From: Solidesulfovibrio magneticus RS-1
GTDB taxonomy: Bacteria; Desulfobacterota; Desulfovibrionia; Desulfovibrionales; Desulfovibrionaceae
NCBI RefSeq assembly: GCF_000010665.1
Contig: NC_012796.1
Coordinates: forward strand, 1,612,001-1,676,000
Direction: 5' to 3'
DNA: 64,000 bases
This document shows, piece after piece, positions 35,191 through 59,672 of the stretch. The position numbers and the translations under genes are program-made. Position 1 is the stretch's first letter, and the number at the start of each line of letters is the position of its first letter. The notes beneath the pieces were generated by a model. The model was not told the DNA's origin. It was given only the letters and a program-made list of their open reading frames with translations, and did not search any database.

Positions 35191-35393
35191 GGACAGCCCG
35201 CACCCTGTCCTTTTGCGGGCCGCATCCTGCCCGAATGTGATTCAAAATTCCCTCGTTATCCTGTAGGGTTGGCCAAGAGGTTCTCCAACCCGGTTGTCCA
35301 AATGAAAAAGGGGATAGGTCGAATACGGCCTATCCCCTTGAAATATATGGTCGGGGCGAGGTGATTTGAACACCCGGCATCCTGCTCCCAAAG
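35191..35393. repeat. flank T, copy 1: tRNA-Pro 3' half and downstream DNA
   Basis: The minus strand of 35348-35393 reads as the 3' half of tRNA-Pro(TGG), from the anticodon loop through a T arm with TTCAAAT to CGACCA. The 5' half is absent. A hairpin GGGGATAGG/CCTATCCCC (35308-35339) followed on the minus strand by TTTTTCATTT is its terminator. The whole block is repeated with about 85-90% identity at 54572-54775. Confidence 0.85.
35308..35339 (-). terminator. terminator behind the tRNA-Pro 3' fragment
   Basis: AAGGGGATAGGCC, an 8-nt loop region, then GACCTATCCCC and TTTTTC on the minus strand. A second, diverged copy is at about 54690-54720. Confidence 0.75.
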
Positions 35394-35394
35394 C
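35377..35394. mobile_element. att-like core 1 (T|A)
   Basis: GCATCCTGCTCCCAAAG, the tRNA-Pro anticodon arm on the minus strand, joins flank T on the left to flank A on the right. Homologous cores occur near 43166, 54759 and 59506. Confidence 0.75.
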
Positions 35395-35645
35395 CGCACT
35401 GGCCGTCTGTATCCTTTGAAATGATTGATGATTTCTTGGTGTGGGATAAGCCCCGTCGGACAAAAGCGATCTTCTCCAGGACATTCCCGATTCTCCAAAA
35501 GTTATCCAAATCCAGCGGTTATCCGGGCTGGAGAACCATATTTCCGCGTTATCAGGTAGGAAATATTGGGCCAGAGGAACAGGGACATATGGGACGCATT
35601 TTTCGCATCCTCTGCAGAAAAGGAGCGGGGCTGGGGGCGGTGAGC
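35395..35645. repeat. flank A, copy 1
   Basis: About 250 bp repeated at 43184-43436, including an identical stretch of more than 50 bp around 35471-35526. It contains GTTATCC motifs at about 35501, 35518 and 35548 (GTTATCA), resembling integrase arm sites. Confidence 0.85.
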
Positions 35646-35765
35646 TGGTCGGATCCCCAGGGGACACATGGAACCCAAATTTTATTCTGTGTAAATTGTT
35701 CGCGCGATCCTTGTGACAAAAAGCCTCTGGCAAACGTATAGGAATAAAAGAGCTCCAGGCAATTT

Positions 35766-36332
35766 ATGAACTACGATGACGAAACACAGCTTATCGAAGA
35801 CATCCTTGATGGGGAGGCCGCCGCGTACGCCGTGTTGGTTCGTCGTTACCAGTCGCCGATTCATGGACTCATGTCGCGCATGTGCCGCAATCCCGAAGAT
35901 GCCAGCGACCTGACCCAGGAAGCCTTTGTCGTGGCTTACGAAAAACTCGAAAAGTTCAAGGTTGGGGCGCGGTTTTTCCCCTGGCTTTACACGCTCAGTC
36001 TCAATATTGCGCGCGACCATCTCCGCAAGCAGGGGCGCGTGGAAATACCGGCGTCTGCGTTACATGATGGTTTCATGGAGAACATACAGGATGAAACAGC
36101 GGATGATGCTCTGATCGAAAAGATCGATAGTGAAAAGCTTTTCGCTGCAATGGACGCGCTCGGCCTGGAAACGAGGGAAGTGTTGATCCTGCGCTACCAA
36201 GAGGGCTTGTCCATTCAAGATATCGCGGATGCCCTGAAAATATCGGTGAGCGCCGTCAAAATGCGCATTTCCCGGGGGCTTGAACGATTGCGCGTAATAT
36301 TTGTGGATTCCATCGGTGGGCAAGAAGCATGA
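35766..36332 (+). CDS. ECF RNA polymerase sigma factor
   Basis: The 188-residue product has region 2 (VLVRRYQSPIHGLMSRMCRN, DASDLTQEAFVVAYEKLEKF, FFPWLYTLSLNIARDHLRK) and region 4 with an HTH (VLILRYQEGLSIQDIADAL, ISVSAVKMRISRGLERLR). It should direct RNA polymerase to its own operon. The stop overlaps the next gene by 4 bp. A possible ECF-type promoter, GGAACC near 35670 with a TGTGTAAA about 16 bp on, lies upstream. Confidence 0.92.
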   Translation: MNYDDETQLIEDILDGEAAAYAVLVRRYQSPIHGLMSRMCRNPEDASDLTQEAFVVAYEKLEKFKVGARFFPWLYTLSLNIARDHLRKQGRVEIPASALHDGFMENIQDETADDALIEKIDSEKLFAAMDALGLETREVLILRYQEGLSIQDIADALKISVSAVKMRISRGLERLRVIFVDSIGGQEA

Positions 36333-36988
36333 ACAAGAAAAATGAGGAACAAGCGGCGCGGGACTTACAACGCTTGGCCGGTGCCATTGCTGGCCTGCCG
36401 CGATCGGATCTCCCGGAACGGCTTTTGCCGCAGATCATGGCCCGCATTGGCCCCAAAGAACCATCTCCTTCGCGTCGATGCTGGAGATGGGTGCAGCGGT
36501 GGTTGCGTCGCTCCCGGGGAGTCGCCATTGGTGGCGCGACAGCTTTTGCCGTGGCAATGCTGATTTGGTCGGCAAGCACCTCCATGCGTCATACTTCCCA
36601 ACCCACTTCGCCTACTGGGAAGGAGGTCGCATCGGAATCGACTGGATGGCGACTTGCCGGCAGCGGAGCCGGACAGGCAAAGGAAGTCACTTTTGTGGCG
36701 CGGTTCCCCGGCGCGCAGCAAGTGGCCGTGATCGGCTCCTTTAATGACTGGATGCCTGGGCGTCACGTCATGCACAAGGCCCTGGGAAGTGATGTCTTCT
36801 CACTGACAGTCAACTTGCCTTCCGGGCGGTATGTTTATGCTTTCCTCGTGGACGGCACGCTCCTGGAGACGGATTCCAGCGCTTTGCTTCAGGAAGACGA
36901 CGGGTTTGGCCATACCAACTCTGTCCTTATCATTGAGGATGACAACGGCCGCCAGCAGGCAGGGGAACGTCATGCTCGTCCGCTTTAA
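36329..36988 (+). CDS. membrane protein with CBM48-like domain, candidate anti-sigma factor
   Basis: The 219-residue product has a cytoplasmic N-terminus of about 65 residues, one membrane helix (about 68-84), and an extracytoplasmic domain of the AMPK/CBM48 glycogen-binding type (VTFVARFPGAQQVAVIGSFNDWMPG, GRYVYAFLVDGTLLETD). Position and topology after an ECF sigma gene suggest an anti-sigma factor whose outer domain senses a glycan. No zinc-binding anti-sigma motif is visible, so the inhibitory function is inferred from context. Confidence 0.75.
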   Translation: MNKKNEEQAARDLQRLAGAIAGLPRSDLPERLLPQIMARIGPKEPSPSRRCWRWVQRWLRRSRGVAIGGATAFAVAMLIWSASTSMRHTSQPTSPTGKEVASESTGWRLAGSGAGQAKEVTFVARFPGAQQVAVIGSFNDWMPGRHVMHKALGSDVFSLTVNLPSGRYVYAFLVDGTLLETDSSALLQEDDGFGHTNSVLIIEDDNGRQQAGERHARPL

Positions 36989-37913
36989 TCTTTTGATTGC
37001 GGGAGTTGTCCTTGCCATGACCTGTATCTGGCCCTCTGCGGGCTTATCAGAAGACCGCGTGGGACTCGTTGAAGCGATGGAGGCCGCGAGGACCGCCGGC
37101 CTCTCGCGAGTCGATATCGATCGCGTCTTGGGGTTTGGCTACCGTTTTGGGTTAAGCGAATCTGATACGGCGGTTTTTCTTATGATCGGGGGCAAGGCTT
37201 CGTCCTCAGGAGGCAACACGGCCTTCGTGATGGACAAGATTGAAGAGGGGTTGGCCAAGCATGTCCCGATTTCTCGCATTGAAGAGGCCGTACGGAACCA
37301 GCTTGAGGATTTTGCCTTCGCTCAGTGGCAGCTGGCAAACCGTCCTGGAGTGACAGCAGCTTTGAACGAGCGTTTGGCCCAGACGTTACGCATGGGGCTC
37401 TCACGGGGCGATATTGATATCTGTCTCTCCCACCCCGATCATTCGGCGCAGCAAGTCGTTTTGACTGCGGAATTTATGGCGGCCGTGCGTCAAGCCGGAC
37501 TCCCTCCCGCCCTAGGGAACAGTTTGGTTGCACAAGTGCTTGAAGCCAAAAATTTTCCCTCTGGGCTTTTGGATATAGCAAGGTTCGTTCGCGATGCGAA
37601 GCAGGGTGGCAATCTCGATGCCTTGGTGGCGGAAGATGCTGCCAAGGTGATCACGGGAGATATGAGCGTTGCTCAGGCGCGACGAGCACTGGGCTTGGCT
37701 TCAGCAGACGGGGCATCAATCGCCGGCAGTGGCCAGGGCAAGTCTGCTGGCGCAGGTGTTGGTTCGGGTAAAGGGTATGGGCAGGGGAGTGGGAACGGTG
37801 GCGGAAATAGCTCTGGGGGCGGTTCGAGAGGAAGCGGCTCCGGCGGCAGTGGCGGGGGCGGCGGTGGTTCGGGTAGCGGCGGAGGAAGAGGGGGCGGTGG
37901 TGGCCGAAATTGA
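36972..37913 (+). CDS. exported protein with long Gly-rich tail
   Basis: The ATG at 36972 overlaps the previous gene by 17 bases and has AGGGGAA upstream. The 313-residue product has a signal peptide (about 1-25), a helical middle (about 28-250) with repeated LSRVDIDRVL / LSRGDIDICL units, and a C-terminal tail of about 60 residues that is nearly all Gly and Ser with Arg. It recalls secreted, self-associating surface proteins. No family recognised. It is the third gene of the ECF operon. Confidence 0.7.
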   Translation: MLVRFNLLIAGVVLAMTCIWPSAGLSEDRVGLVEAMEAARTAGLSRVDIDRVLGFGYRFGLSESDTAVFLMIGGKASSSGGNTAFVMDKIEEGLAKHVPISRIEEAVRNQLEDFAFAQWQLANRPGVTAALNERLAQTLRMGLSRGDIDICLSHPDHSAQQVVLTAEFMAAVRQAGLPPALGNSLVAQVLEAKNFPSGLLDIARFVRDAKQGGNLDALVAEDAAKVITGDMSVAQARRALGLASADGASIAGSGQGKSAGAGVGSGKGYGQGSGNGGGNSSGGGSRGSGSGGSGGGGGGSGSGGGRGGGGGRN

Positions 37914-38016
37914 AAGTTAATATGGCAAGTGATTTTCGCGCAAAAAAAATGAAACCTAGGTGACCAAATTCTCGTCTCCCTCGTATATCAATATAAATAG
38001 CGAAAAGGAGGAAGTT

Positions 38017-38277
38017 ATGCTGAGAAAAATGATGATTGTTGTCGCAATGTGTTGTTTTGGATTCATGGCCACAAACGTCTTTGCACAAAATGGTTTCGGC
38101 TTTAATGCAGGTGGTTATCAGGGGCAGCTTGCCGGAGGTGCAGGGGTTGGTGGCAACGGAACCTGCCAGTTGGGCAACGGTACGGGCCTTGAACTTGGCC
38201 TCATGTTTGGTTTTGGGGATGGTACGGAGCCGAGGCCTCAAGATGGAACGGGTTTTGGCGCGCCGACAAACCGATAA
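38017..38277 (+). CDS. small secreted Gly-rich protein
   Basis: AAGGAGG precedes the ATG. The 86-residue product has a signal peptide cleaved after VFAQ (about 22-26) and a mature part rich in Gly, Asn and Phe (GFGFNAGGYQGQLAGG), with one Cys. It sits 100 bases after the Gly-rich exported protein and looks like a second product of the same ECF regulon. Function unknown. Confidence 0.65.
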   Translation: MLRKMMIVVAMCCFGFMATNVFAQNGFGFNAGGYQGQLAGGAGVGGNGTCQLGNGTGLELGLMFGFGDGTEPRPQDGTGFGAPTNR

Positions 38278-38636
38278 TATCTTACTACGAAAGAACTAGC
38301 CCCCGCAGTCGTTATTTCGGCAATCGGATCATGGGCGGCCTGTCTCCGGGTGAGGTGGGCCGCTTTCTCGTTGCCGGGCAAAGTGGCTACTCTGAGACGT
38401 GACAGTTCAGCTATCACCGGGTGGACAATCTGACAAAGTCCACGTCGCTATCGATTGGATGCGGATGCGGTCGAGATATTCAACAGTGCCGCTCATGAGC
38501 TTTGCCTCAAACTGTTCCCGGTTCATCCCAAAGCTACGCCAAGGTTTTCTTGAAAGGTACGCCTCCTCTGACAAGTGCAGCTTTGCCCATGGCTTGGTTT
38601 GAGAGTGTGGCATAGCCCTGTTGTTTTCGTTTTAAG
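38278..38636. other. non-coding stretch with repeat fragments
   Basis: 38283-38310 resembles the end of the histidine-kinase gene and its terminator (59347-59375), and 38316-38380 resembles 54954-55017. These are scraps of module E3-type sequence joined here. A 68-codon minus-strand frame (38407-38613) has no support. Confidence 0.5.
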
Positions 38637-39248
38637 TTATTTTTTGACATAAAGTGCCAACGCTTTTTGTGCCAAAAAGTCTTCCCGAGTCATTCCTTTG
38701 ATTATTTTTCTCTCCTTAAACAATCTCCTGTGTCCTATTTCTTTGACTATCGACCTAATAAACATCTTGAAAACCAAATAAACATCTTCGTCTTCAAATA
38801 ATACGACTGCGCGATGCTTGAGCACAAGAACAAATCTTGTCTTGATTGATTTTGCGAATACGTTCTTTCTGCGAAAAAATGTCTGCGGCTTAACAAGCAA
38901 GTAGTACTGCTCTCTGTTGACTTGAACCTCAATCGAGTTGTGCTCGCTATTTATAAAAGAACTAAACTGAATGTCGTTGTTTAAGTACATCGACATTTTT
39001 TGGATATTTTTCTGGAAAAGCCTAAGCTTTCTTCTTCCAATACTGCATTTAACTTCATAGCTATCTATTGAATCATGCCTTAGGGTCTCATGTAAAATAA
39101 CATCTCTAGGGTCGAAGTCGTACGATCGTTTTATTGTTCTCTTTTTTTTCTCAAACAGTTCTAGCCGTTCATTTTTTATCTTTCTATAGATATAAACATA
39201 AAAACACCCCAAAAGTAGTACTACAAGCAAGCCTTCTAGATTAATCAT
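38637..39248 (-). CDS. membrane-anchored hypothetical protein
   Basis: I prefer the ATG at 39248 (203 residues) because the N-terminus is then a hydrophobic helix (about 4-22, LEGLLVVLLLGCFYVYIY); an ATG at 39284 is the alternative. The rest is basic and beta-rich with no recognised domain. The DNA is much more AT-rich than the neighbours, a sign of foreign origin. It lies between the ECF operon and HigBA. Confidence 0.55.
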   Translation of the reverse strand: MINLEGLLVVLLLGCFYVYIYRKIKNERLELFEKKKRTIKRSYDFDPRDVILHETLRHDSIDSYEVKCSIGRRKLRLFQKNIQKMSMYLNNDIQFSSFINSEHNSIEVQVNREQYYLLVKPQTFFRRKNVFAKSIKTRFVLVLKHRAVVLFEDEDVYLVFKMFIRSIVKEIGHRRLFKERKIIKGMTREDFLAQKALALYVKK

Positions 39249-39284
39249 TGTTTCATCGTGTAATTGTTTGCCTGTTGCGTGCAA

Positions 39285-39923
39285 TATGTATGTCGCTTTC
39301 TGTAGTTATAGACATAAAGTTACATTTTGAACTTCGGCCCTCTCTAGACCGGAAGCGATTCTCTTATACCCGCGATTCGGAAAAAATGTCCACTCTAAAT
39401 GGGGGGAGGCCAGTCGTTTGATAGACTGACCAAGGGCGAACCAGTGGAGTCTGTCATCGAGTAGAGACAAAGCTGCCTCGGCCAATGAGGCCCAGCAACG
39501 CCCCAAAGCTGATACACTGTCAACTATAAGAAATTAGGGCACGGAACCCCGCTTTGCCGGGTCCGGAAAGTTGAGATTTATGGGGGGTGTTGGCTGGATG
39601 ATGTGATCCTCGCCCTTTCTCCATGGCGACAAGGTGCGTTTTCAAAGCACGGAAACAGGCTGGCTTTACCCTCGGTGGCTTGGCGCTGCGGACAGGTTGG
39701 GACGCATGGGACGTGTTCCCGCACCCTTTTGAGAAAGCTACGATTTTGCCAGGCTGCTAGACACCCGGCCCCTGGCGGTTATCCGGAGGTTAGTCATACA
39801 GGGGTGGGGACGGACTTAAAAAAGACTGTCTGGGATTGGGGCACGAGAGTCGGTAGACGGCCACCCAGGTTGGGGGAGCGCCCCCTTGCCAGGTTATAAT
39901 ATAAATATTATATGACGGGTGCC
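39285..39923. other. 639-bp gap without supported gene
   Basis: It contains a partial copy of flank B around 39755-39800 (CCCGGCCCCTGGCGGTTATCC followed by a degraded remainder, shared with 54851-54905 and 59604-59655). No intact gene was found. Confidence 0.45.
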
Positions 39924-40250
39924 ATGAGCGAATGGGACGCGCATTTCATCAATGAGTTGGCAGAGGCCGAGTTTGAGGCCCTCCCTATCGATATCCGGGC
40001 GAAACTGACCCGTGCCTTGGATTTGCTGCGGGCAAAGGGGATTACGGTGTTGGCGATGCCCTTGGCTCGGCATGTGGAAGGGAAGGTTTGGGAGCTTCGG
40101 GCTACGGGACGAGACGGTATCGGGCGAAGCCTCTATGTGGCTGCGTCGGGGCGGCGTCTCCTGATCCTGCGGTCATTTATCAAGAAAACACAAAAAACTC
40201 CGCGCGTGGAAATCGAAATAGCATTGAAGCGGCTTAGTGAGGTCGAGTGA
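39924..40250 (+). CDS. HigB/Gp49-type toxin
   Basis: From the ATG at 39924 (an ATG at 39912 is possible) the product has 108 residues with the RelE/HigB (phage-derived Gp49) pattern: AEFEALPIDIRAKLTRALDLL, LARHVEGKVWELRATGRDGIGRSLYVA, LLILRSFIKKTQKTPRVEIEIAL. Such toxins cut mRNA on the ribosome. The antitoxin gene starts 1 base after the stop, in the toxin-first order of HigBA. Confidence 0.88.
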   Translation: MSEWDAHFINELAEAEFEALPIDIRAKLTRALDLLRAKGITVLAMPLARHVEGKVWELRATGRDGIGRSLYVAASGRRLLILRSFIKKTQKTPRVEIEIALKRLSEVE

Positions 40251-40251
40251 T

Positions 40252-40560
40252 ATGGCTACCGTTCCTTTCAGCAGGGTTCGCGAACGAATGATGGCCGACC
40301 CTGAGTTTCGGAAAGAATACGGCGCGTTGGGCGAAGAGTTCGCCCTCATCGAGGCGATGATCGAGGCGCGCACGCAGGCGAATATGACCCAGGCGGACGT
40401 GGCCAAGGCCATGGGGGTGAGTCAGCCTCGTGTCGCTCGCATCGAATCCGGAAAGAATGTCTCCCTGGAGACGTTGCGGCGTTACGCCAAGGCGACCGGC
40501 GGCAGACTCAAGATCGTCATTGAACCGGGCAAAGCGGAACAGCGCCAACTGCGGAAATGA
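40252..40560 (+). CDS. HigA-type XRE antitoxin
   Basis: The 102-residue product carries an XRE helix-turn-helix (MTQADVAKAMGVSQPRVARIE) at about 47-70 and an N-terminal toxin-binding helix. The pair should autoregulate through this HTH. It forms a two-gene operon with the toxin and lies just before the TOTE gene. Confidence 0.88.
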   Translation: MATVPFSRVRERMMADPEFRKEYGALGEEFALIEAMIEARTQANMTQADVAKAMGVSQPRVARIESGKNVSLETLRRYAKATGGRLKIVIEPGKAEQRQLRK

Positions 40561-40648
40561 TTCAACCGTATTCCCCATGCTTTTTCACAACCCTCCGAGC
40601 TCGGGTGGAGCGTTGGCGAGTTGAAAATGCTTTGGCGGTTTGTATGTC

Positions 40649-43045
40649 ATGATCACAAGTGGTAGCGACTCTTCTCACACGTCCGAACTTGAGGAGTTGC
40701 GAAAGCTACGAGAGGAAAATGCTCGCCTTAGAGAATTGCTTGCGCGTCACAATATCTCATCGGAAGGATCTTCTGCTACTGAAATTGCGCTATCCCCTGT
40801 AGGGCAACGCTCCTTGCCGGTCCCACAAAGTTCTGCAGATAAGATTTCCCTTTTTCGAAAGCTGTTTCGTGGACGAAATGATGTTTATCCACAGCGTTGG
40901 GAGTCCGCCAAGGGGAAGTCAGGATATTCTCCAGTCTGTGAAAATGAATGGCGGCGCGGAGTCTGTCAAAAACCTCGGCTGAAATGCGGGGAATGTAGTC
41001 ATCGTGTGTTGTTGCCCATAACGGATCAAGTGCTCTATGCTCATCTTTCTGGGAAGTGCACCATCGGTGTGTATCCTCTGTTGTCAGATGATACGTGCTA
41101 TTTTTTAGCCGCTGATTTTGATGATGATTCTTGGCAAGAGGACTCCAAAGCTTTCATGCAATCTTGTCAGGAACTCAATGTCCCTGCTTACCTGGAAATA
41201 TCTCGATCCGGGAAAGGGGCGCATGTATGGATTTTCTTCCTCGAAGCAGTTTCGGCGCGTGAGGCACGACAACTTGGCGCGGCTTTGATCAGCCATACCT
41301 GTGATCGCACACGTCAACTTTCCCTTTCAAGCTACGACCGGTTATTTCCCAATCAAGATATCATGCCCAAAGGCGGATTTGGGAATCTGATCGCGTTGCC
41401 ATTGCAGAAAGTGCCTCGTAATGCTGGGCGCAGTGTCTTTGTTGATGAGAACCTTATTCCTTTTGTTGATCAGTGGGCTCTTCTTGCCTCCGTTCGTCAG
41501 ATGTCGGCAGCGGAATTAGAGGCCGCTATTTTACGGGCATGTGGCGGTAGACATCCATTGGATGTCGCGTACACATCTGAGGAAAATGATGTATTGCCAT
41601 GGCAGAGGCCGAATCGGGAGGTTCGCCAGGTTGCCGGTCCACTTCCTAAATCGTTGGCACTGGTGCTCGCGAACCAGATTTTTATTTCCAAGTCTGATCT
41701 GCCGCAGCAACTCGCAAATCGCCTGATACGGTTGGCCGCTTTCCAAAATCCAGAATTTTATAAGGCACAGGCAATGCGCCTTCCTGTGTGGGATAAGCCT
41801 CGTGTCATTGGTTGTGCTGAGAATTTTCCACAGCATATTGGTCTTCCAAGGGGGTGCCTTGAGTCGGTGCTCGATCTATTACAGAAAAATGGCATCGAAC
41901 CTCATTTGCAAGAGGAGCGCATCCAGGGGAGTAAAATATCGGTAAAATTTCTTGGGACGCTGAGAAAAGAGCAGATATTGGCTGTTCGCGCGATGCTTCG
42001 GCATGACATTGGCGTTTTGTGCGCTCCAACGGCTTTCGGTAAAACAATTACGGCTGCGGCGTTGATTGCTCGGCGAAAGCTTCGCACCCTCGTTTTGGTT
42101 CACCGCACGGAATTGTTGAGGCAGTGGTCTGAACGGTTGACGGGATTTCTTAATATCCCAACGGGGGGGATTGGGCTCATTGGAGGAGGAAAGAAAAAGT
42201 TCTCAGGTGAAATTGATATCGCAGTTATGCAATCTCTTGTTCGGCAAGATGGCCTTGGCGAATTGCTCGATAATTATGGCCAGATCATCGTCGACGAGTG
42301 TCATCATATTTCTGCTTTTTCATTTGAAAGCATACTTAAGCAAGCAAAGTCAAAATACATTGTCGGGTTGACCGCCACTCCGATCAGACGCGATGGCCAG
42401 GATCCGATTATTTTTATGCAGTGTGGGCCAATAAGGTACACCGCCGCTCGATCTGAGAATGCACCTTCACGACTTGAAGTATTTCCACGGTTTCTTGCTG
42501 CGCCAGATGTTCAAGAGGGGGTGCCTATTCAAGAAGTTTTTCGGAGATTAGTTAGTGATGGCAAGAGAAATAGATTTATCGTTAAAGATGTTTTGCGTGA
42601 ATACAAAGAAGGTCGAAAGATTCTTGTTCTCACAGAACGGACAGAGCATTTAGCACTGCTGGCCAGTCTTCTTGAAAATCTTGTTGAAAAATTGTATGTT
42701 TTACACGGTAAATTGTCCCGCAAACAGCGAGTGGCTATTTTTTCGGACCTTGAGTCATTAGATGCCTCAACTCCACGAGTAATACTAGCGACTGGCCGTT
42801 TGATTGGCGAAGGTTTCGATCATCCACCTCTTGACACGATGATGTTGGCGATGCCGATTTCCTGGAAGGGGACTTTGCAACAATACGCAGGTCGGCTTCA
42901 CAGGGAGCATGCTGAAAAGCAAGATGTACGCATTTATGATTATATTGAGGACAATTTACCTCAATTATCGCGGATGTGGCGCAAACGACAATCGGGATAT
43001 CAGGCGATGGGCTATCGATTTCGAGACGATCGTAGCTTAGTTTAG
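40649..43045 (+). CDS. TOTE-type primase fused to superfamily 2 helicase
   Basis: The product has about 798 residues (ATG 40649; a TTG at 40640 also fits). An N-terminal coiled coil (about 10-40) is followed by an archaeo-eukaryotic primase domain of the TOTE conflict-system type: LFRGRNDVYPQRWES, four Cys in CENEWRRGVCQKPRLKCGEC that likely bind zinc, LAADFDDDSW with catalytic Asp, RSGKGAHVWIFF. A DEAH-like helicase starts near 445 (Walker A PTAFGKT, IIVDECHH, GLTATPIRRDG, YAGRLHREH). TOTE proteins are linked to defence. No separate effector is fused. Confidence 0.85.
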   Translation: MITSGSDSSHTSELEELRKLREENARLRELLARHNISSEGSSATEIALSPVGQRSLPVPQSSADKISLFRKLFRGRNDVYPQRWESAKGKSGYSPVCENEWRRGVCQKPRLKCGECSHRVLLPITDQVLYAHLSGKCTIGVYPLLSDDTCYFLAADFDDDSWQEDSKAFMQSCQELNVPAYLEISRSGKGAHVWIFFLEAVSAREARQLGAALISHTCDRTRQLSLSSYDRLFPNQDIMPKGGFGNLIALPLQKVPRNAGRSVFVDENLIPFVDQWALLASVRQMSAAELEAAILRACGGRHPLDVAYTSEENDVLPWQRPNREVRQVAGPLPKSLALVLANQIFISKSDLPQQLANRLIRLAAFQNPEFYKAQAMRLPVWDKPRVIGCAENFPQHIGLPRGCLESVLDLLQKNGIEPHLQEERIQGSKISVKFLGTLRKEQILAVRAMLRHDIGVLCAPTAFGKTITAAALIARRKLRTLVLVHRTELLRQWSERLTGFLNIPTGGIGLIGGGKKKFSGEIDIAVMQSLVRQDGLGELLDNYGQIIVDECHHISAFSFESILKQAKSKYIVGLTATPIRRDGQDPIIFMQCGPIRYTAARSENAPSRLEVFPRFLAAPDVQEGVPIQEVFRRLVSDGKRNRFIVKDVLREYKEGRKILVLTERTEHLALLASLLENLVEKLYVLHGKLSRKQRVAIFSDLESLDASTPRVILATGRLIGEGFDHPPLDTMMLAMPISWKGTLQQYAGRLHREHAEKQDVRIYDYIEDNLPQLSRMWRKRQSGYQAMGYRFRDDRSLV

Positions 43046-43077
43046 GCGATTTGACACAGGCTGGAAGTCCAGTGGCC

Positions 43078-45576: not shown

Positions 45577-45592
45577 ACTTTTGGAGCTTTTT

Positions 45593-51436: not shown

Positions 51437-51832
51437 TGCGGGAAAACCGCCCGTCAGGAATTCATGGACGCTTAGAACGGCGACGTTCTTCTCGATCCAA
51501 GAAGAACACTTTGACCAGTGAGCATTAATTGCTTGCTGGCGGAAGTGTTCTATCTGCAATAACTACCACGAAGGCCTAGGAACTCTAGGCCTTCTTTTTC
51601 ACGCAATAATTTTGAAGACCATGGACAATTCAATGGTATAAAAAACATACCGCCATAAAATCTCATTTACTGCGTTTTTCCCAGATTTCTACAGTCAGTT
51701 CCCACTCCACGGCGAAAACCCCGGAAATCGCCGTATAGGGCCAATGCCAGTTTTTGCCCGGCGAAAAGTCGATTTTCCGCTCATATTGTCGATTCCAATA
51801 GAGAAATATACCAATAAACAAAGGAGATTTTC
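51437..51832. other. gap with terminator, no supported gene
   Basis: The terminator at 51570-51599 lies in this stretch; the rest shows no credible frame. Confidence 0.45.
51570..51599 (+). terminator. Rho-independent terminator
   Basis: GAAGGCCTAG, GAACT, CTAGGCCTTC, then TTTTT. Confidence 0.88.
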
Positions 51833-52210: not shown

Positions 52211-52231
52211 CTACTACAATCTCCATCGATG

Positions 52232-52262
52232 AAAGCCACACCTCAGGGTGTGGCTTTTTATT
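52232..52262 (+). terminator. Rho-independent terminator
   Basis: AAAGCCACACC, TCA, GGGTGTGGCTTTTTATTT, just after the AbrB-like gene. Confidence 0.88.
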
Positions 52263-52484
52263 TATGCGAACATCCTTTCTCTCAAACTTCGCTATATTAT
52301 AGAGAAATTATCCATATAGCCAATGTACGTTTCTACATAAAAACGTACTTTCCCCGGCAAAAACCTGATTCGGCGTTAAAATTTAACCCGTTACAGGCTG
52401 CTTGGGAGCCCTAGTCCTGGGCGCTGGCTTTTTAGAAGTCCGACTTCACCCACCTAAACTGCAATAATTGCATTGGAGCAAAAG

Positions 52485-53042
52485 ATGAAGGTCGAACCCA
52501 TTACTGAACCCAAGTCCATTAAGAGCATCAAGAAAATCCTTTCTGACAACCATCGAGACAAATTACTGTTCATCATGGGCATAAACACTGGACTTCGCGT
52601 GCAGGACTTACTTGCGCTTAAAAAGAAGGACGTCAAAGACGTCCAAGTTGGAGAGCGAGTAATCTTGCGCGAAAAGAAGACCGGCAAGGAAAACGTCTTC
52701 ATCATGAACAAGGAGATCAAGATTGCTCTTGACGAGCATCTAACAACAGCAAAGCTAGAGGACAACCACTACTTATTCAAAAGTAGAAAAGGTTCGAACT
52801 ATCCGCTTTCGACATATGCCGTCACCAAGTACGTCAAAGCATGGGCTGAAGCTGTGAATCTCAAAGGAAACTACGGTGCCCATACCTTGCGCAAAACTTG
52901 GTGCTACCACCAGCGCAAGACTTTCGGTGTCTCCTGGGAAGTTTTGGCGAAGCGGCTGAACCATTCCAGCCCGTCGATTACGCGCCGGTACCTCGGTATC
53001 CAGGAGGAGGAGGTGGAGGAGATACTTCTCCATACAATCTAA
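52485..53042 (+). CDS. minimal tyrosine recombinase
   Basis: From the ATG at 52485 (GGAG upstream) the product has 185 residues, a catalytic domain only. The active-site set is NTGLRVQD (Arg), REKKTGKEN (Lys), HTLRKTWCYH (His and Arg), LNHSS (His) and the Tyr in RRYLGI. It lacks an arm-binding domain and so resembles FimB or Xer-like enzymes in size. It lies 400 bp before the full integrase and may resolve dimers or act on a different site. Confidence 0.82.
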   Translation: MKVEPITEPKSIKSIKKILSDNHRDKLLFIMGINTGLRVQDLLALKKKDVKDVQVGERVILREKKTGKENVFIMNKEIKIALDEHLTTAKLEDNHYLFKSRKGSNYPLSTYAVTKYVKAWAEAVNLKGNYGAHTLRKTWCYHQRKTFGVSWEVLAKRLNHSSPSITRRYLGIQEEEVEEILLHTI

Positions 53043-53188
53043 TTAATACAGGGGCCTAGAAAGCCCCTGTATTGATGCATCACTGTAGCGTACGAGGCTA
53101 AACAACGTCTCAACATGTAATGATGATGACTCTGGTATTAATCAGTTAATATTAAATTATGCGTTCTTAGCTGGAGGGTCAGTCATGG

Positions 53189-53425
53189 ATGGAGGAAATG
53201 GTTAGCTGTCTTGGACCATTCTACGATTTAAAAGATGCTGCAAAATATTGTGGATATAGCGTTTCATATTTCTCAAAAATTGTCAGAAAGAAAAGTATTA
53301 AACGATATGGACCGGCTCAATCGCGGTTTGCTCGTGCTGATTTAGATCAATTAATGGCCAATCCAGAAAGTTTCTCATCTATTCTCGAAATTAAACCGAG
53401 AACTCCAATCGAACTTGAGGTTTAA
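53189..53425 (+). CDS. excisionase/AlpA-like HTH protein
   Basis: The 78-residue product has an HTH of the MerR/excisionase kind (YDLKDAAKYCGYSVSYFSKIVRKKSIKRYGPAQSRFARADLDQLM). It ends 1 base before the integrase start, an arrangement typical of xis-int pairs, and probably controls the direction of recombination. The start could be either Met at residue 1 or 4. Confidence 0.72.
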   Translation: MEEMVSCLGPFYDLKDAAKYCGYSVSYFSKIVRKKSIKRYGPAQSRFARADLDQLMANPESFSSILEIKPRTPIELEV

Positions 53426-53426
53426 G

Positions 53427-54470
53427 ATGTCCGTTCACATGCGAAAGAACAACGGCACCTACTACGTCGCCTATCGGAACGCCGAGGGCAAGCAGACGAC
53501 CAAGACCTTCGGCAAAGGCCGGGAAGGACGCAGGGCTGCCCAGAAATTTGACAAGCAGGTCAAGGACCACGGTTCCGTGCAGCCGCGCACCCCAGAGGCC
53601 ATCTCCGAAGAGGTGGCCGTCACCGGCAAGCTTTATCTCGACCAGCTGGCCCAGATGTACATTAACTCCCGGAAGGTCGAGGGGACGTCGATCCGCACCC
53701 TGAACGAGATCAAATCGTTCTTGAAGCGGCACCTCATCCCCGTCTTCGCACAGCGCCCAGTCGAGGAGATCAAGTACGATGAAATCGTTAAAATTGTGGC
53801 CAAGGCCTACGAGAATCGATCGCCGGTGACTCGAGGGCGGTATCTGTCCTATTTGAAGACGGTTTTCAAATTCGGAGTGGAGCACGACCTTATCGAGAAG
53901 AACCCGCTGCGCCAGTGGCATAAGCCCAGGGAGAAGCCCCGGGATACGAAGCTCACGGTCGATGATCTCCAGCAGATCAAGGCCGCAGCCGAACCCCATT
54001 TGGCCTGGGCCATCGAGGTCGCCTGGAACCTTGGGGTGCGGACCGGGCCATCGGAACTGCTTGCCCTGACCTGGGACGACATCAGCTGGGCCGAGAAGAC
54101 CATCAACGTGTTCGCGACCAAGACCAACACGAGGCGGACCGTCCCGCTCTCCGACGAGTTTCTGGCGCGCCTCCAGGAGAAGAAGGCCACGGCGCAGTGC
54201 GAACGAATCGTGGAGTATCACGGACGGCCGGTGAAGCAGATCAGCCGGGCCATGAGGACGGCATGCCGGCGGGCCGGGATCACCTATCCCGTAGTGCTGT
54301 ACGACGTCCGGCACCTCTTCGCCACGACCCTCCTGAACGAGGGAGGGGACCTCTCGGCGGTGAGCAAGCTTATGGGCCACTCTTCGATTCAGATGACCGC
54401 CAACAACTATTACCACCTGCTCGGCGACGAGAAGCGCCGAACCATAGCTCGGTTACCTCGGCTGGAATAG
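53427..54470 (+). CDS. phage-type tyrosine integrase of module E2
   Basis: The 347-residue product has an N-terminal arm-binding domain (MRKNNGTYYVAYRNAEGKQTTKTF), a core-binding SAM-like domain (about 70-160), and a catalytic domain with Arg in NLGVRTGPSELL, a Lys near TKTNTRRTVPL, YDVRHLFATTLLNEG (here H-L-F with R in DVRH), GHSSIQMT and the Tyr in NYYHLL. It is GC-rich, unlike the rest of E2. It lies 260 bases from the T|B core, so that core is probably its attachment site. Confidence 0.9.
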   Translation: MSVHMRKNNGTYYVAYRNAEGKQTTKTFGKGREGRRAAQKFDKQVKDHGSVQPRTPEAISEEVAVTGKLYLDQLAQMYINSRKVEGTSIRTLNEIKSFLKRHLIPVFAQRPVEEIKYDEIVKIVAKAYENRSPVTRGRYLSYLKTVFKFGVEHDLIEKNPLRQWHKPREKPRDTKLTVDDLQQIKAAAEPHLAWAIEVAWNLGVRTGPSELLALTWDDISWAEKTINVFATKTNTRRTVPLSDEFLARLQEKKATAQCERIVEYHGRPVKQISRAMRTACRRAGITYPVVLYDVRHLFATTLLNEGGDLSAVSKLMGHSSIQMTANNYYHLLGDEKRRTIARLPRLE

Positions 54471-54498
54471 TCGGGCCAGCGATTCGATTGTTTATTGG

Positions 54499-54528
54499 GC
54501 ATCCCAGAAGGGGTGCCCTTTTTTTTGC
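54499..54528 (+). terminator. integrase gene terminator
   Basis: GGGCATCCC, AGAA, GGGGTGCCC, then eight T. Confidence 0.9.
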
Positions 54529-54571
54529 GCAGGGTGCCTACGTTGGGCGTTCCACTGGATTGTCCCATGTG

Positions 54572-54775
54572 GGACAGCCCGCAGCCTGCCCGTTTGTGGG
54601 CCGCATCCTGCCCGAATGTTATCTAAAATTCCCTCGTTATCCTGTATGGTTGGCCGAGAGGTTATCCAACCCGGTTATCCAAAAGATAAAGGGGACAGGC
54701 CGAACACGGCCTATCCCCTTGAAATCTATTGGTCGGGGCGAGGTGATTTGAACACCCGGCATCCTGCTCCCAAAG
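54572..54775. repeat. flank T, copy 2, and core 3 (T|B)
   Basis: Second copy of 35191-35393. 54730-54775 is again the tRNA-Pro(TGG) 3' half on the minus strand without a 5' half, ending in the core (54759-54775). To the right flank B begins. Confidence 0.85.
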
Positions 54776-54916
54776 GAGCAAAGACGAGACATTTATATTG
54801 AAATAATTGGATATTTTTCAGGGGTGGATAACATTTTCTGGCTAAAACGACCCATGCCCGGCCCCTGGCGGTTATCCAGAGGTTAGCCACACGGGAGGTT
54901 GTCCAGGGGCGGTTTA
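54776..54916. repeat. flank B, copy 1
   Basis: About 140 bp repeated at 59524-59672, with GGTTATCC and GGTTGTCC motifs in CCCCTGGCGGTTATCC-type context. Confidence 0.85.
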
Positions 54917-55014
54917 CCCTGAGGCAAAACTGATACAGCCAGGCCCGGACCTCGGCAATCGGATCATGAACGGCTGCCTCCCGGGTGGAGGTGGGCCGCT
55001 TTATCTTTGCCGGG

Positions 55015-55191
55015 TCAATGCCATTTCGTCTTGTCGAAGACGCCGCGCCGGGTAAGCTCGCCTTCCTTGTAGCCGTCGAAGTCGAAGCGGCCGGGCACAC
55101 TGCCGGCGTCATGGCGCTTGTTCCTCAAGACGAAGGCTGCCACCATGGCAAGAACGCCCATGGCAAGGGCTGCGGCGATGATCCATTCCAT
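55015..55191 (-). CDS. 58-residue single-span membrane protein
   Basis: The minus-strand frame begins MEWIIAAALAMGVLAMVAAF, one membrane helix, and ends in a basic/acidic tail (RFDFDGYKEGELTRRGVFDKTKWH). Codon use is like the GC-rich genes. No good Shine-Dalgarno is seen, and no family is recognised. It is divergent from the binding-protein genes. Confidence 0.45.
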   Translation of the reverse strand: MEWIIAAALAMGVLAMVAAFVLRNKRHDAGSVPGRFDFDGYKEGELTRRGVFDKTKWH

Positions 55192-55487
55192 AGGAGTGGC
55201 TGGTAGCAGGTGGGGACCGGCTTGTCATCCTGTTGGGGTATGAGAACCCGGACCGGCGGGGGCAGTCGCGAAGGGGTCATGAGAGAGGGTGGGGAAGAGA
55301 CTTGCGAAGATTTTTTGCCAAGAGCCCTCAAAACGTAGCTTCCCGTATGGAACCCAGTCCCGTACGGAGCCCTTGCGCGAACGCCAAAAAACTGTAATCA
55401 GAAATACTCATGATATAGCCTGATGGTCAGGGAAAAGACGGAGCGCATCCCTTGCCCGGCTTCAACCCTTAAACCGGAAGGCACAGG

Positions 55488-56663
55488 ATGCATCGCAGCG
55501 CACTGCTCGGGATCGGCCTGTTCCTCGCCATGGTCATGCTTCTGATCCCGGTCCTCGCCGGCCCAGCAAAGAGCGGCTCCACGGCCGTTCACCTGGCGGT
55601 CATCGCGGCCACTAGCGGTATGGCCTCGGTGCACAACCAGGCCTCCCTTAGGGGCCTGTATTTGGCTGCGGCCAAGATCAACTCCCGCGGGGGCTGCCTC
55701 GGGAGCCCCCTTGAACTGACGGTTCTGGATAACCAAAGTACGTCCCTGGGCTCCAGGAGAGCCGCTCAGGAAGCCGTGCGTCTGGGGGTCGCCGCAGTGC
55801 TCGGGCCGATCTGGAGCTCCCATTCCCTGGCCGCCGCCCCGGTCCTCCAGGCGGCCGGCATCCCCATGATCACGCCTCTGTCCACCAACACTCGGGTAAC
55901 CCAGGTCGGGGACCACATCTTCCGGACCTGCTTTACGGACGATTTTCAGGGCCGGGTTATGGCCCGATTCGCCCGTGAACGACTAAACGCGGCCACCTGC
56001 GCGGTCCTGGCCAGCGCCGACGAGGACTACAGCCAAGGCTTGGCCAAGGTGTTTGCCGAGGAGTTCATGGCCGCCGGAGGCAAGGTGGTCTATACAGCCG
56101 ATTACCGAGCCAAGTCCCTGGACTTCACCCCCCAGCTAGCCCAGGTTCAAAGGCTCGACCCGAACGTAATCTTCGTGCCCGGCTATGGCCTGGATGTAGG
56201 CCTGATCATACGTCAAGCCCGGTCCTTAGGCATCAATACTGTCTTCCTGGGCGGGGACGCATGGTCGGATTTATACGACCACGACATACAGGGCCTGGAA
56301 GGCAACTACTACTCGACGTTTTGGCACCCGGATTTGCCTGTCTCGGGCAACGCGTCCGTGCGCCAGGATTTCCTTGAGGCCTCCGGGTCGCATCTGCGGG
56401 ACTCCATGGATACGGCCATGGCTTACGATGCTCTGCTGCTTGTGGTCGAAGCCATTGAGCGGGCCGGTTCTACCCAACCCGCTCTAATACGCCAGGCCCT
56501 GGCCGACACCAGCAGCTTCGTGGGCGTCACTGGCTCCATCGCCTTCGACGCGTCCCGCAACCCCGTGGGCCGGGGCGCAGTCATTCTCAAAACCGGTGAA
56601 CAACGGCCGAGTTTCGAAACCGTCTTTGACCTCCAATCTGGAATTTCTCCAAGGCAACCATGA
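55488..56663 (+). CDS. periplasmic branched-chain amino-acid-type binding protein 1
   Basis: The 391-residue product has a signal peptide (about 1-22) and the type I periplasmic binding fold of the LivJ/Peripla_BP_6 family: LRGLYLAAAKINSRGGCLG, AAVLGPIWSSHSLAAAPVLQAAGIPMITPLSTN, FIRTCFTDDFQG-like segment near 145. The ligand is unknown. No ABC permease or ATPase lies nearby; instead a second binding protein and a histidine kinase follow, so it probably works in sensing. Its stop overlaps the next start (ATGATG). Confidence 0.88.
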   Translation: MHRSALLGIGLFLAMVMLLIPVLAGPAKSGSTAVHLAVIAATSGMASVHNQASLRGLYLAAAKINSRGGCLGSPLELTVLDNQSTSLGSRRAAQEAVRLGVAAVLGPIWSSHSLAAAPVLQAAGIPMITPLSTNTRVTQVGDHIFRTCFTDDFQGRVMARFARERLNAATCAVLASADEDYSQGLAKVFAEEFMAAGGKVVYTADYRAKSLDFTPQLAQVQRLDPNVIFVPGYGLDVGLIIRQARSLGINTVFLGGDAWSDLYDHDIQGLEGNYYSTFWHPDLPVSGNASVRQDFLEASGSHLRDSMDTAMAYDALLLVVEAIERAGSTQPALIRQALADTSSFVGVTGSIAFDASRNPVGRGAVILKTGEQRPSFETVFDLQSGISPRQP

Positions 56664-57769
56664 TGCGCGTTTTTCTCACGATTGTCTCGCTCTTGGCTCT
56701 GCTCTGGGCCGGGCCAGGATACGCCGAGTCGTTCAAGGTGGCGGCCATTTTCGCCAAAACCGGACAGGCCGCGAGCCAAAACGCAGACAACCTGCGCGGC
56801 GTGCGGTTGGCGGCAGCTGAAATCAATGCCCGGGGCGGAATCCTGGGCGAGCCCTTGGAGATCTTTGAACTGGACAACCGCAGCACACCCATCGGTGCCA
56901 AGGTGGCCGCCGAGGAGGCCGCCCGGATAGGGGTGCGAGCTATTGTCGGCTGTTCCTGGAGCAGCCATTCCCTGGCCGCCGCCCAGGTGGCCCAGCGTCA
57001 CGGCATACCCATGATCTCTGACATCTCTACCAGCCCGGCACTGACCCAGGTTGGCGATTACATCTTCCGCGTCTGCTACACCGACGCCTTCCAGGGCAAG
57101 GTCATGGCCCGGTTCGCCAGGGAGGACCTGCGCGCCGGGACCGCCGTGGTGCTGGTGGACATCGACGACGACTACAGCCTGGACTTGGCCAAGGAATTTT
57201 CTCGGGAATTCACGTTACGGGGTGGTATTATGGCCCCGGACATACACTATAAGCATGGGCAGCCCAGCTACCGGGAGGTGGTACAGGCTGCCAAGGCCGC
57301 CAAGGCCCAGGTCTGCTTCATCCCCGGACACGACGAATCCGGCACCATCGCCGCCCAGATCGTTCGTGAAGGCGCTACCTGCATCCTGCTAGGTGGCGAC
57401 GGCTGGGACTCACCAGCCTTTTACGCTAAGGGCGGCTCTGAACTCGATGACGGCTACTACTGCACCCACTGGCATCCCCGGAGCGCCACACCCGCCTCCC
57501 TAGATTTAATGGTCCGGCAAGGAGAAGCCGAATTGGTCGCGCCAGTGGTTTTGGCTTACGATGCTCTTATGCTCTTGGCCGACGCCGCAGCCAGGGCGGG
57601 CACCCCGGACCGTGCCGCCATCCGCGACGCCCTGGCCAACACCAGGAACTATCCGGGAGTGACCGGTGCCATCAGCTTTCTCGCCAATGGCGATCCCGCC
57701 AAGAGTGCGGTGATCATGCGCATCCGGAAAGGAAAACAGGCATATTACAGGAACGAAGACCCCAACTGA
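56660..57769 (+). CDS. periplasmic branched-chain amino-acid-type binding protein 2
   Basis: The 369-residue product is a diverged paralogue of the upstream protein: signal peptide (about 1-21), LRGVRLAAAEINARGGILG, AIVGCSWSSHSLAAAQVAQRHGIPMISDISTSP, YTDAFQGKVMARFAREDL. The two genes came from a tandem duplication, judging from the shared segment order. It is 14 bases from the kinase gene. It may bind a related ligand and touch the kinase's outer domain. Confidence 0.88.
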   Translation: MMRVFLTIVSLLALLWAGPGYAESFKVAAIFAKTGQAASQNADNLRGVRLAAAEINARGGILGEPLEIFELDNRSTPIGAKVAAEEAARIGVRAIVGCSWSSHSLAAAQVAQRHGIPMISDISTSPALTQVGDYIFRVCYTDAFQGKVMARFAREDLRAGTAVVLVDIDDDYSLDLAKEFSREFTLRGGIMAPDIHYKHGQPSYREVVQAAKAAKAQVCFIPGHDESGTIAAQIVREGATCILLGGDGWDSPAFYAKGGSELDDGYYCTHWHPRSATPASLDLMVRQGEAELVAPVVLAYDALMLLADAAARAGTPDRAAIRDALANTRNYPGVTGAISFLANGDPAKSAVIMRIRKGKQAYYRNEDPN

Positions 57770-57783
57770 GCGCGCCACCACCC

Positions 57784-59367
57784 ATGGACAACCTGACCCG
57801 CCGAATATTCCTCCCCCTCTTGTTGACCGGCATCATGGTCATTGTTGTTTATGGGATCATCTTAACCAGCTATGAACAGAAACGTCGTGCAGACAATCTG
57901 GAGCAGATACGCTTCCAGCTTCTGACACTGTATGAGCTGCGACGCGAGGACATCGGAAACGAGATATTCGGCGGCAAGCGCTTGGCTCTGGCCGACACCC
58001 TACAAAAGATGCGCTTCGTCCATGACATCGTGACGGTCACTGCCTTCAACCCGGAGGGCAAGGCCCTGGAGGATACCAGCGGCGAGGCCGCTGACTTGAC
58101 TCGAGCCGAGCTCGACCAGCTCGACCAGGTGCCGCAGTTTGTCGAGACCGACTACCGGGACCTTCGGGTGGCCGTCCTGACCACCATGGTGGAGGTCATC
58201 GGCGAACGGGTGGGCTACGTCAGGATCCGCTTCGACCTCAGCAAGCTGCAGCGGGAAGCCCAGAGCTCCTACAATTTCTTCCTGGCCCTATTGCTCACCC
58301 TTTTCGTCATCATGAGCCTGACCCTGCACGTTATCATCAAGCGCATGGTCATACGCCCGGTGACCCGCCTACGGGACGCCATGACCCGGGTTCGCGACGG
58401 CCGCCTGGAAATCTCCTTGGACATTGAGACCAAAGATATCATTGGCGAACTGGCCGCCTCGTTCAACGAGATGACCGCCGCACTCAAGAAGGCTCGGGAG
58501 GACCGCAGCGAGGCCATCGTCCGTCTGGAGGATAGCCTTGTTGCCTTGTCGCGCAAGGCCGAAGAGCTCGCCGAGGCCAATCACCGGCTCATGGAACTCG
58601 ACAAGCTCAAAAGCGATTTCATCTCGTCGGTTTCCCACGAGTTGCGCACCCCCATGACCTCAGTGCTCGGGTTCGCCAAGCTCATCCACCGCGATTTCGC
58701 CAAGCTTGAGCGTTCAGACCGGACCGGCCCAAAAGCTCATGCCCTGGCCCGGCGAATTGACGGCAACATCGCCATCATCATTGAGGAGGGTGACCGCCTT
58801 ACCTCACTGATCAACGACGTTTTGGACTTAGCCAAGATCGAATCCGGCAGCATCCAATGGCGCGACCGGGAGGTGGATGTGGTAAAACTTGGGCACCGGG
58901 CGCTTCGGGCCGTTGAGGGCGTGCTCGACAAAGCCCCCCGGACGCGTTTGATCAGCAGCCTGCCGGATCACATGCCCAAGACCATCATCGACCCCGAACG
59001 CCTGCTCCAGGTGCTCATTAACCTCCTGTCCAATGCCATCAAATTCACCCCCCAGGGGACGGTGGAGTTGAAAGCCCGATGCACGGGCAACGTCCTGCGC
59101 CTAACAGTCGCGGACCAAGGCATCGGCATCCCGCCCCAGGAATTGGAACGCATCTTCGATAACTTCCATCAGGTCCGCCGGGATGACTCCCCGGAGCATA
59201 AGCCCCATGGAGTGGGCCTGGGTCTGGCTATCTGTCGCCGCATCGTGGACCACTACCACGGCCGCATTTGGGCTGAGTCCGACGGCGAGCACGGCAGCAC
59301 TTTCCACGTGGAACTGGCCGTGGCAGACACGACCGCCACTGATAATGTCATACTACGAAATAAGTAG
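57784..59367 (+). CDS. HAMP-containing sensor histidine kinase
   Basis: The 527-residue kinase has one membrane helix at about 10-30, a periplasmic domain (about 31-160), a second helix (about 163-185), HAMP (about 186-240), a coiled coil (about 240-275), HisKA with the phosphorylated His in FISSVSHELRTPMTS near 285, and HATPase_c with LLSNAIKFTPQG, VADQGIGIPP and HGVGLGLAICRRI. No receiver domain is fused, and no response regulator lies in the window, so its partner is elsewhere. It forms an operon with the two binding proteins. Confidence 0.92.
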   Translation: MDNLTRRIFLPLLLTGIMVIVVYGIILTSYEQKRRADNLEQIRFQLLTLYELRREDIGNEIFGGKRLALADTLQKMRFVHDIVTVTAFNPEGKALEDTSGEAADLTRAELDQLDQVPQFVETDYRDLRVAVLTTMVEVIGERVGYVRIRFDLSKLQREAQSSYNFFLALLLTLFVIMSLTLHVIIKRMVIRPVTRLRDAMTRVRDGRLEISLDIETKDIIGELAASFNEMTAALKKAREDRSEAIVRLEDSLVALSRKAEELAEANHRLMELDKLKSDFISSVSHELRTPMTSVLGFAKLIHRDFAKLERSDRTGPKAHALARRIDGNIAIIIEEGDRLTSLINDVLDLAKIESGSIQWRDREVDVVKLGHRALRAVEGVLDKAPRTRLISSLPDHMPKTIIDPERLLQVLINLLSNAIKFTPQGTVELKARCTGNVLRLTVADQGIGIPPQELERIFDNFHQVRRDDSPEHKPHGVGLGLAICRRIVDHYHGRIWAESDGEHGSTFHVELAVADTTATDNVILRNK

Positions 59368-59400
59368 CCCCCGCAGTCTCTGTCTGGCTGTAGGGGCTTT
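59366..59400 (+). terminator. terminator of the kinase operon
   Basis: AGCCCC and GGGGCT close a 20-nt loop; TTTCTGTT follows. The stem starts in the kinase stop codon. A partial copy of its left part lies at 38297-38310. Confidence 0.65.
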
Positions 59401-59417
59401 CTGTTATGCCGCCGAGG

Positions 59418-59523
59418 TGCATCCTGCTACACAGGAAGCTGCATCCTGACCTGATATTTTCAGGCATTCGCCATTATTACATGATGTTAAGCCCTTGCGT
59501 TTGACGCATCCTGCTCCCAAAGG
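59418..59523. repeat. flank X, copy 2, and core 4 (X|B)
   Basis: Repeat of 43078-43183 with three GCATCCTG copies, ending in the core GCATCCTGCTCCCAAAGG (59506-59523). Confidence 0.85.
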
Positions 59524-59672
59524 AGCAAAGACGAGGTTTTTACATTGAAATAATTGGATAAATTTTCAGGGTGGATAACATTTTTCGGCTAAAACGACCC
59601 ATGCCCGGCCCCTGGCGGTTATCCAGAGGTTAGCCACCCGGGAGGTTATCCAGGGGCGGTTTCTCCTGTCTT
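59524..59672. repeat. flank B, copy 2
   Basis: Counterpart of 54776-54916, including the paired GGTTATCC motifs. Confidence 0.85.

Follow-up and report, generated by a model that had tools for sequence, protein, structure and literature searches.

The window analysed here is a stretch of 64,000 nucleotides from Solidesulfovibrio magneticus RS-1 (C2:1612001-1676000; the genome consists of three contigs and 5.3 Mb). It reaches into what is probably a tandem array of four integrative elements at a tRNA-Pro(TGG) gene, in which two elements with an integrase would act as helpers of two passengers with no recognisable integrase; this judgement is a joint one on the array and the helper/passenger scheme. 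Counted from the tRNA leftward, the array consists of E4 (left end B, right end T; 18.2 kb), E3 (B and X; 4.7 kb), E2 (A and T; 11.6 kb), E1 (A and X; 7.8 kb), and a T end at 35188. The combinations of flanks are the junctions of two left-end types (A and B) and two right-end types (T and X). As judged by sequence comparison, the X end is quite likely a sequence of its own, dedicated to passengers.

A search of the window with up to three mismatches found core copies at 35377, 43166, 54759 and 59506, all on the plus strand, against a mean of 0.18 in shuffled sequence. These are the four cores in one orientation that had been recognized from the letters of the window (hereafter, the sequence-only reading). 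The repeated 18-mer described there was recovered, but with two variants instead of one: C/T at position 9 (the copy at 43166) and a final base C (the copy at 35377). In the genome, GCATCCTGNTCCCAAAG occurs five times with at most one mismatch, and a control pattern does not occur. The fifth copy, at C2:1689747 (window-equivalent 77747), lies beyond the window inside an intact tRNA-Pro(TGG) gene on the minus strand (C2:1689718-1689794, or L012:13718-13794), 18 kb to the right of the window's last core; the proposed origin of the att cores from tRNA-Pro in a modular array is supported. The junctions are, in order, J1 (T/A), J2 (X/A), J3 (T/B) and J4 (X/B), and the fifth, beyond the window, joins T to the 5' half of tRNA-Pro. 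Att cores are present on both sides of E1 and of E3.

Features in the window (cores from the core search):
35188..35376, plus strand: T end left of the array, with arm, half-site copy GCATCCTG at 35222, terminator-like repeat and tRNA-Pro 3' half
35377..35393, plus strand: core J1 (T/A), 7-nt anticodon loop TCCCAAA at 35386-35392
35394..35636: left end A of E1, with GTTATCC repeats
35394..43165: element E1, left end A, right end X, no recombinase found
43078..43165: right end X of E1, with two half-site copies 22 nt apart, no GTTATCC repeat and no tRNA half
43166..43182, plus strand: core J2 (X/A), GCATCCTGT variant
43183..54758: element E2, left end A, right end T
44031-45479: D5-type primase/helicase of E2
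52473-53042: small tyrosine recombinase of E2, 189 aa
53189-53425: HTH_17-like (xis-like) gene of E2, just under Pfam's cut-off
53415-54470: integrase of E2 (PF00589 and Phage_int_M in 53415-54467)
54569..54758: right end T of E2, with half-site copies, GTTATCC repeats, terminator-like repeat and tRNA-Pro 3' half
54759..54775, plus strand: core J3 (T/B)
54776..59505: element E3, left end B, right end X, no recombinase found
59411..59505: right end X of E3
59506..59522, plus strand: core J4 (X/B)
59523..64000: start of element E4, left end B, right end T, continuing to window-equivalent 77746 (L012:13746)

The pairing of flanks proposed in the sequence-only reading held in ungapped alignment, with the core counted where the stretch covers it. 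The identity is 89% over 161 nt for the T pair (35188 and 54569), 84% over 260 nt for the A pair (35377 and 43166), 91% over 163 nt for the B pair (54759 and 59506), and 79% over 109 nt for the X pair (43078 and 59418). Five full X ends can be aligned over ~110 nt. They consist of two half-site copies 22 nt apart, a conserved body, and the core directly after it, and they do not contain the terminator and the tRNA 3' half of T; the second half-site copy is degenerate in the array at tRNA-Arg(TCT) described below. With at most one mismatch, GTTATCC is found three to four times per T end (n = 6), four to six times per left end (n = 8), and 0, 1, 0 and 0 times in four X ends (shuffled means, 0.31-0.62).

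All 11 genomic matches of a T+A probe are at the island loci of tRNA-Pro(TGG), tRNA-Arg(TCT) and tRNA-Pro(GGG), and the four matches of an X+B probe are within the tRNA-Pro(TGG) array. This confinement rules out that the flanks are a dispersed repeat family, a point which the sequence-only reading had left to be checked. A laxer local comparison revealed in addition relics inside E1 and an A-like fragment beyond tRNA-Pro. The fragment (window-equivalent 92293-92413, in L013; ~14.5 kb past tRNA-Pro) is ~76% identical to the A left end and is perhaps a relic of another insertion.

Anticodon loop, half-site copies and the array at tRNA-Arg(TCT)

Every Pro-TGG junction contains the invariant seven nucleotides TCCCAAA, which correspond to the anticodon loop. 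Each half-site segregates with the flank on its own side: to the left of the loop it is GCATCCTGC (GCATCCTGT at J2), and to the right it is GCCGC, GGCGC, GGAGC or, in the tRNA, GCAGG. This is the pattern that would be expected from tyrosine-recombinase exchange within the anticodon loop. In Islander, anticodon-centred sites are one main class (PMC4383910).

A copy of the half-site, defined as the 9 nt left of the anticodon loop, was sought as the best match within 21 T and X arms, with the tRNA and the core excluded. In 18 arms the own half-site matched better than the half-sites of other tRNA targets (shuffle values 0 to 0.029). For the genome of RS-1, pooled by class, the own half-site matched at 9, 9 and 9 of 9 positions in the T ends at Pro-TGG, 9 and 9 in the X ends at Pro-TGG, 9, 8 and 9 in the T ends at tRNA-Arg, 8 and 8 in the X ends at tRNA-Arg, and 9 and 9 in the T ends at tRNA-Pro(GGG); the best foreign half-site matched at no more than 7 of 9 positions in each class. 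The spacing between the copy and the loop is 87 nt in all five X ends. A half-site copy was also seen by eye at tRNA-Pro(GGG) of three further species (G004, G005 and G007). The 21 arms share descent and do not represent 21 independent events; their independent content is a copy that changes together with the core in four half-site classes.

A second array was found at tRNA-Arg(TCT) (C2:3451503-3451579). It has five junctions with another core, TCTGCTTAGAAG, and the loop TTAGAAG.

Junctions of the tRNA-Arg array:
C2:3398116: T/A
C2:3399393: X/A
C2:3406093: X/A
C2:3430355: T/A
C2:3451536: T/tRNA

The elements k1 (1.3 kb) and k2 (6.7 kb) both end with X and show no recombinase match. A T end and the module of recombinase, xis-like gene and integrase are found in k3 (24.2 kb) as well as in k4 (21.2 kb). 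All left ends in this array are A-type. An integrase remnant at 3394568 suggests that the leftmost T of this array is the end of a decayed element. At tRNA-Pro(GGG), 28.6 kb separate two T ends, and an integrase with 61% identity is encoded in between. Three further integrase clusters (C2:96-116 kb, 1064-1130 kb and 3613-3648 kb) include two or three related genes each, 39-44% identical. They are likely to be other tandem islands; no T or X ends were seen by eye within 900 nt downstream of their integrases.

The common terminal module of E2 and E4 consists of a small tyrosine recombinase, an HTH_17-like (xis-like) gene, an integrase and the T end, and the E4 integrase is 73% identical to that of E2. 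In agreement with the sequence-only reading, no integrase was found in E1 and E3: neither matched the recombinase and xis-like queries. None of six X-ended elements (E1, E3, k1, k2, and those of G001 and G005) has a recombinase match, and a long integrase match was found by the same search in five of eight T-ended elements. A second short tyrosine recombinase, with the catalytic domain only, is encoded upstream of the xis-like gene in all four T elements of both arrays, and one is also present in the tRNA-Pro(GGG) island. The matches listed from a PF00589 search of eight genomes were used for placing integrases only.

Proposed helpers and passengers, and competing explanations

In the proposed mechanism, E2 and E4, with the small recombinase, the xis-like gene, the integrase, and a T end including the tRNA 3' half, would be helpers. 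E1 and E3, whose left ends are of the same kinds but which end in X on the right and have no recognisable integrase, would be passengers. Most likely, passengers are also served by the integrase of a resident T element. Each would be moved as a circle with the site X/A or X/B, and the circle would be inserted at the left junction of a resident element (T/A, T/B or X/A) with the flank types conserved. Because X, without the 3' half, cannot rebuild the tRNA, a passenger would be tolerated only where a T end separates it from the tRNA. The half-site copy in T and X may be an accessory core-type binding site of the integrase, and the GTTATCC repeats may be arm-type sites. The left-end type of the X element is the same as that of the next tRNA-ward element in all five scorable cases (E1-E2, E3-E4, k1-k2, k2-k3, and G001), which fits insertion at a cognate helper, and also homologous recombination or inheritance. 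At eleven congener loci of tRNA-Pro(TGG), the tRNA-proximal end always completes the gene (seven T and four T2, the latter another arm type at this tRNA; sorted by eye); selection alone would explain this.

Related species provide comparisons for single modules. In S. aerotolerans (G005:C122), an E2-like right end is followed by the core, a B end, and then E4-like restriction genes; E3 is absent at the core, a module-level difference between species of the kind that the sequence-only reading had proposed to look for. When the flanks of E3 are joined, they align over 1,179 bp (90.6%) across the end of E2, the core and the start of E4. E3 itself matches over its first 139 bp only, a stretch that corresponds to the B end which it shares with E4, and G005:C122 yielded no further core. 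Because E2-like DNA is joined to E4-like DNA by T/B without E3 in this species, it is more likely that X/B arose with the arrival of E3.

In the congener G001, a passenger at the same tRNA-Pro has the left end of E1 (92%) and its right 3.3 kb (95%), with no sigma-factor module, and is flanked by T2/A and X/A junctions. The sigma-factor module of E1 precedes an X-like end in G011 (86% over 2.6 kb). The terminator just before the X of E3 recurs in G004 after a gene for a small glycine-rich protein of the kind found in E1, an arrangement that suggests recombination between cargo and X end. Outside its own copy, the cargo of E3 is represented in the 14 genus genomes (own included) by partial matches only among those listed, with the kinase up to ~790 nt and the binding proteins short. 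In G007:C4 (~17.5-17.9 kb of L183+L084), a decayed T/A junction with a mutated core exemplifies the fading of a junction.

Doubtful but to be taken seriously is plain accretion of cis-mobilizable elements (CIMEs), in which E1 and E3 would be decayed elements that, after deletion of their integrase and tRNA-bearing end, were stacked by newcomers, and X would have no function of its own. CIMEs are defined as decayed integrative and conjugative elements or integrative and mobilizable elements with retained attL and attR, tandem accretion is established, and the composites listed for Streptococcus salivarius place CIMEs distal to the target gene (PMC5704250, PMC7563491). E1 and E3 resemble CIMEs in being flanked by att cores and in that no integration or transfer genes were recognised in the scanned proteins (for transfer genes, seven E1 and three E3 proteins scanned with Pfam; the short E1 frames 37960 and 39603 were left out). 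T and X have the distal half-site region in common, and the model R1 matches some T ends weakly. In G011 the X body is followed by the terminator and the tRNA half of another end type, and in G005 an X-like arm is joined to the terminator and tRNA half at the junction left of the passenger; X may thus be a shortened T end. The X end of G005 has its right part replaced by other sequence, in which a transposase-like frame was seen by eye. Some T-ended elements are also without an integrase. On the other hand, the sequence and exact spacing of X are conserved over unrelated cargo, two tRNA specificities and another species. Independent decay would not yield such a conserved X, although one ancestral deletion followed by spread would.

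Growth of the array by homologous recombination between the long shared ends, in place of site-specific insertion, is very improbable. The ends, such as the A repeat of 260 nt (84%), are long enough for it, and the agreement of left-end types in five of five cases would be explained as well. However, the half-sites segregate with the flanks (the T variant of J2 with X, and CAATCTGC of K2/K3 with X), which places the exchange at the 7-nt loop, and the empty site T/B is precise at the core. The interpretation given in the sequence-only reading, in which the four junctions are attP, attL, attR and attB of the single element E2 that entered an X/B site, can hardly be right, since, although excision of E2 would formally give T/A and leave X/B, tRNA-Pro(TGG), which has a T junction itself, is the bacterial site, X/B is the junction of E3 and E4 in a stack of two left-end and two right-end types, the order E2-like, T/B, E4-like exists without E3 in S. 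aerotolerans, and a similar stack at tRNA-Arg has A-type left ends only.

Several observations weigh against the helper/passenger scheme itself. The mobility of the X elements is inferred, the A repeat would also permit homologous recombination, and X may, in view of the X-like arms of G011 and G005, be a shortened T end. The sequence-based X model is detected in only four of 14 genus genomes at E <= 0.001 (RS-1 with four copies, G001, G005 and G011); among 149 family genomes, four have matches at E <= 0.01, one of them (G113) weak, and some of the genus and family matches are T ends. In S. aerotolerans the B end is separated from the restriction genes by ~2.6 kb of other DNA, and loss of E3 is possible there, gain and loss not being polarised. 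The E2-like integrases of G001:C16 (~108.4-109.3 kb) and G005:C122:130-1023 (~93% identical) align from about residue 50 only, so that the presumed arm-binding N-terminal part may be missing. Of the eight T-ended elements tested, those of G003 and G011 have no integrase match and that of G009 has a remnant of 28 residues; for G010 and G013, too, the DNA retrieved to the left of the T end gave no integrase match. The xis-like assignments are below Pfam's cut-off. As for the half-site copy, the own half-site ties with those of other targets in three of the 21 arms (G010, G011 and G013; 0.2 to 0.35), shuffling often gave modest values for single arms (0 to 0.029 in the remaining 18), and no clear copy was seen by eye in a related tRNA-Ala element (L091).

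Immediately ahead of the E2-like integrase of G001 is DNA that matches a different part of k3, a pattern that suggests loss of the N-terminal part.

Cargo and left edge of the array

The cargo of E1 includes an extracytoplasmic function (ECF) sigma factor, an AMPK1_CBM/CBM48 protein, a Gp49/HTH toxin-antitoxin-like pair, and an AEP-TOTE primase-helicase. E1 is composite, with internal relics of X-side sequence (38270-38378) and B-side sequence (39764-39802), which would fit a fusion of earlier modules with loss of cores. E3 encodes two periplasmic binding proteins and a histidine kinase. Three proteins of E2 (45572, 46373 and 48417; region 45572-49886) have no Pfam match, and the PADLOC matches for 48417 were weak only. 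E4 carries genes for type I restriction-modification, an AEP primase/helicase, a small recombinase, the xis-like gene and the integrase (L012:12491-13537).

The left edge of the array (window 33738-35115) holds a ZMP/ZTP riboswitch before what we take, from its sequence, to be a second glyA-like gene. The glyA gene is conserved at 97-98% in G008, G012 and G006, and at 84% in G001, and the DNA left of ~35166 matches the glyA loci of congeners. No tRNA was found within the fetched 1.5-kb flanks of these loci; the left boundary of the array therefore looks like a rearrangement, and gives no ancestral attB. No element was recognised left of the T end at 35188, and the T of J1 (35188..35376) is probably the surviving right end of a lost element.

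Known systems and significance

Tandem accretion with integrase-less islands is already known from CIMEs. As in the ICESt1-related elements of Streptococcus, att-flanked cargo without an integrase is stacked with integrase-bearing elements, distal to the target gene. Unlike CIMEs, the passengers here share a separate, conserved right end from which both target-gene sequence and the repeats of the helper ends are missing, and no conjugation gene was recognised among the Pfam-scanned proteins of E1 and E3. The ssrA islands of Dehalococcoides are likewise several tandem islands at one RNA gene with modular cargo, and 15 of 31 are without an integration module; they differ in using a serine recombinase system, and no dedicated passenger end is described in the accessible text (PMC3146451).

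The Islander paper lists Desulfovibrio magneticus RS-1 as the genome with the most islands, 19 (PMC4383910). E2 and E4 fit the tRNA islands described there, with an anticodon-centred att, a fragment of the tRNA gene (tDNA) and an integrase. For the whole array, the tDNA is represented by the intact tRNA-Pro(TGG) and the copies of its 3' half at J1 and J3. E1 and E3 show no integrase match, and the X end has no tDNA fragment of its own. Under the Islander rule for tandems, every member needs both an integrase and a tDNA fragment (PMC4383910); E1, E3, k1 and k2 show no integrase match and have no tDNA fragment at their X end. These four elements would go uncalled under that rule.

Integron cassettes insert beside a platform site that holds extra core-like repeats. 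Integron cassette arrays and clusters of attC sites lacking integron-integrases (CALINs) are similar to the present arrays in having integrase-less cassettes in one orientation (PMC11389934). In contrast to them, whole islands of 1.3-8 kb are involved here, with a tRNA-targeting integrase. The integrases of E2 and E4 match general phage-integrase families, a match that by itself is compatible with IntI as well.

It is conceivable, but on present evidence unlikely, that the X elements are dedicated satellite "island cassettes", with a simplified X/A circle that lacks one set of arm sites and the tRNA half, and with the T/A junction as a capture platform. In that case, the resident T/A junction would have both arms and core-like accessory copies, and the tRNA locus would be integron-like for whole islands, protected in that contact with the tRNA is reserved for T-ended elements. 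For a switch to a new tRNA, the accessory half-site copy and the core would have to change together.

Two features look new: the dedicated X end, which is shared by arrays of two tRNA specificities, and the half-site copy that covaries; no description of either was found among the open-licence titles and beginnings of abstracts listed. Islands without an integrase are often found stacked at tRNA genes, and the usual description of them is as decayed elements. Island finders that need an integrase or a tDNA fragment would miss X-ended elements, because neither is present beside X. The X-ended elements of the two arrays share a conserved end although the tRNA targets differ, and this end is present in more than one species. 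It thereby becomes testable whether these elements are a maintained class of satellites, and the target-linked half-site copy offers a sequence handle on how integrases switch their tRNA target.

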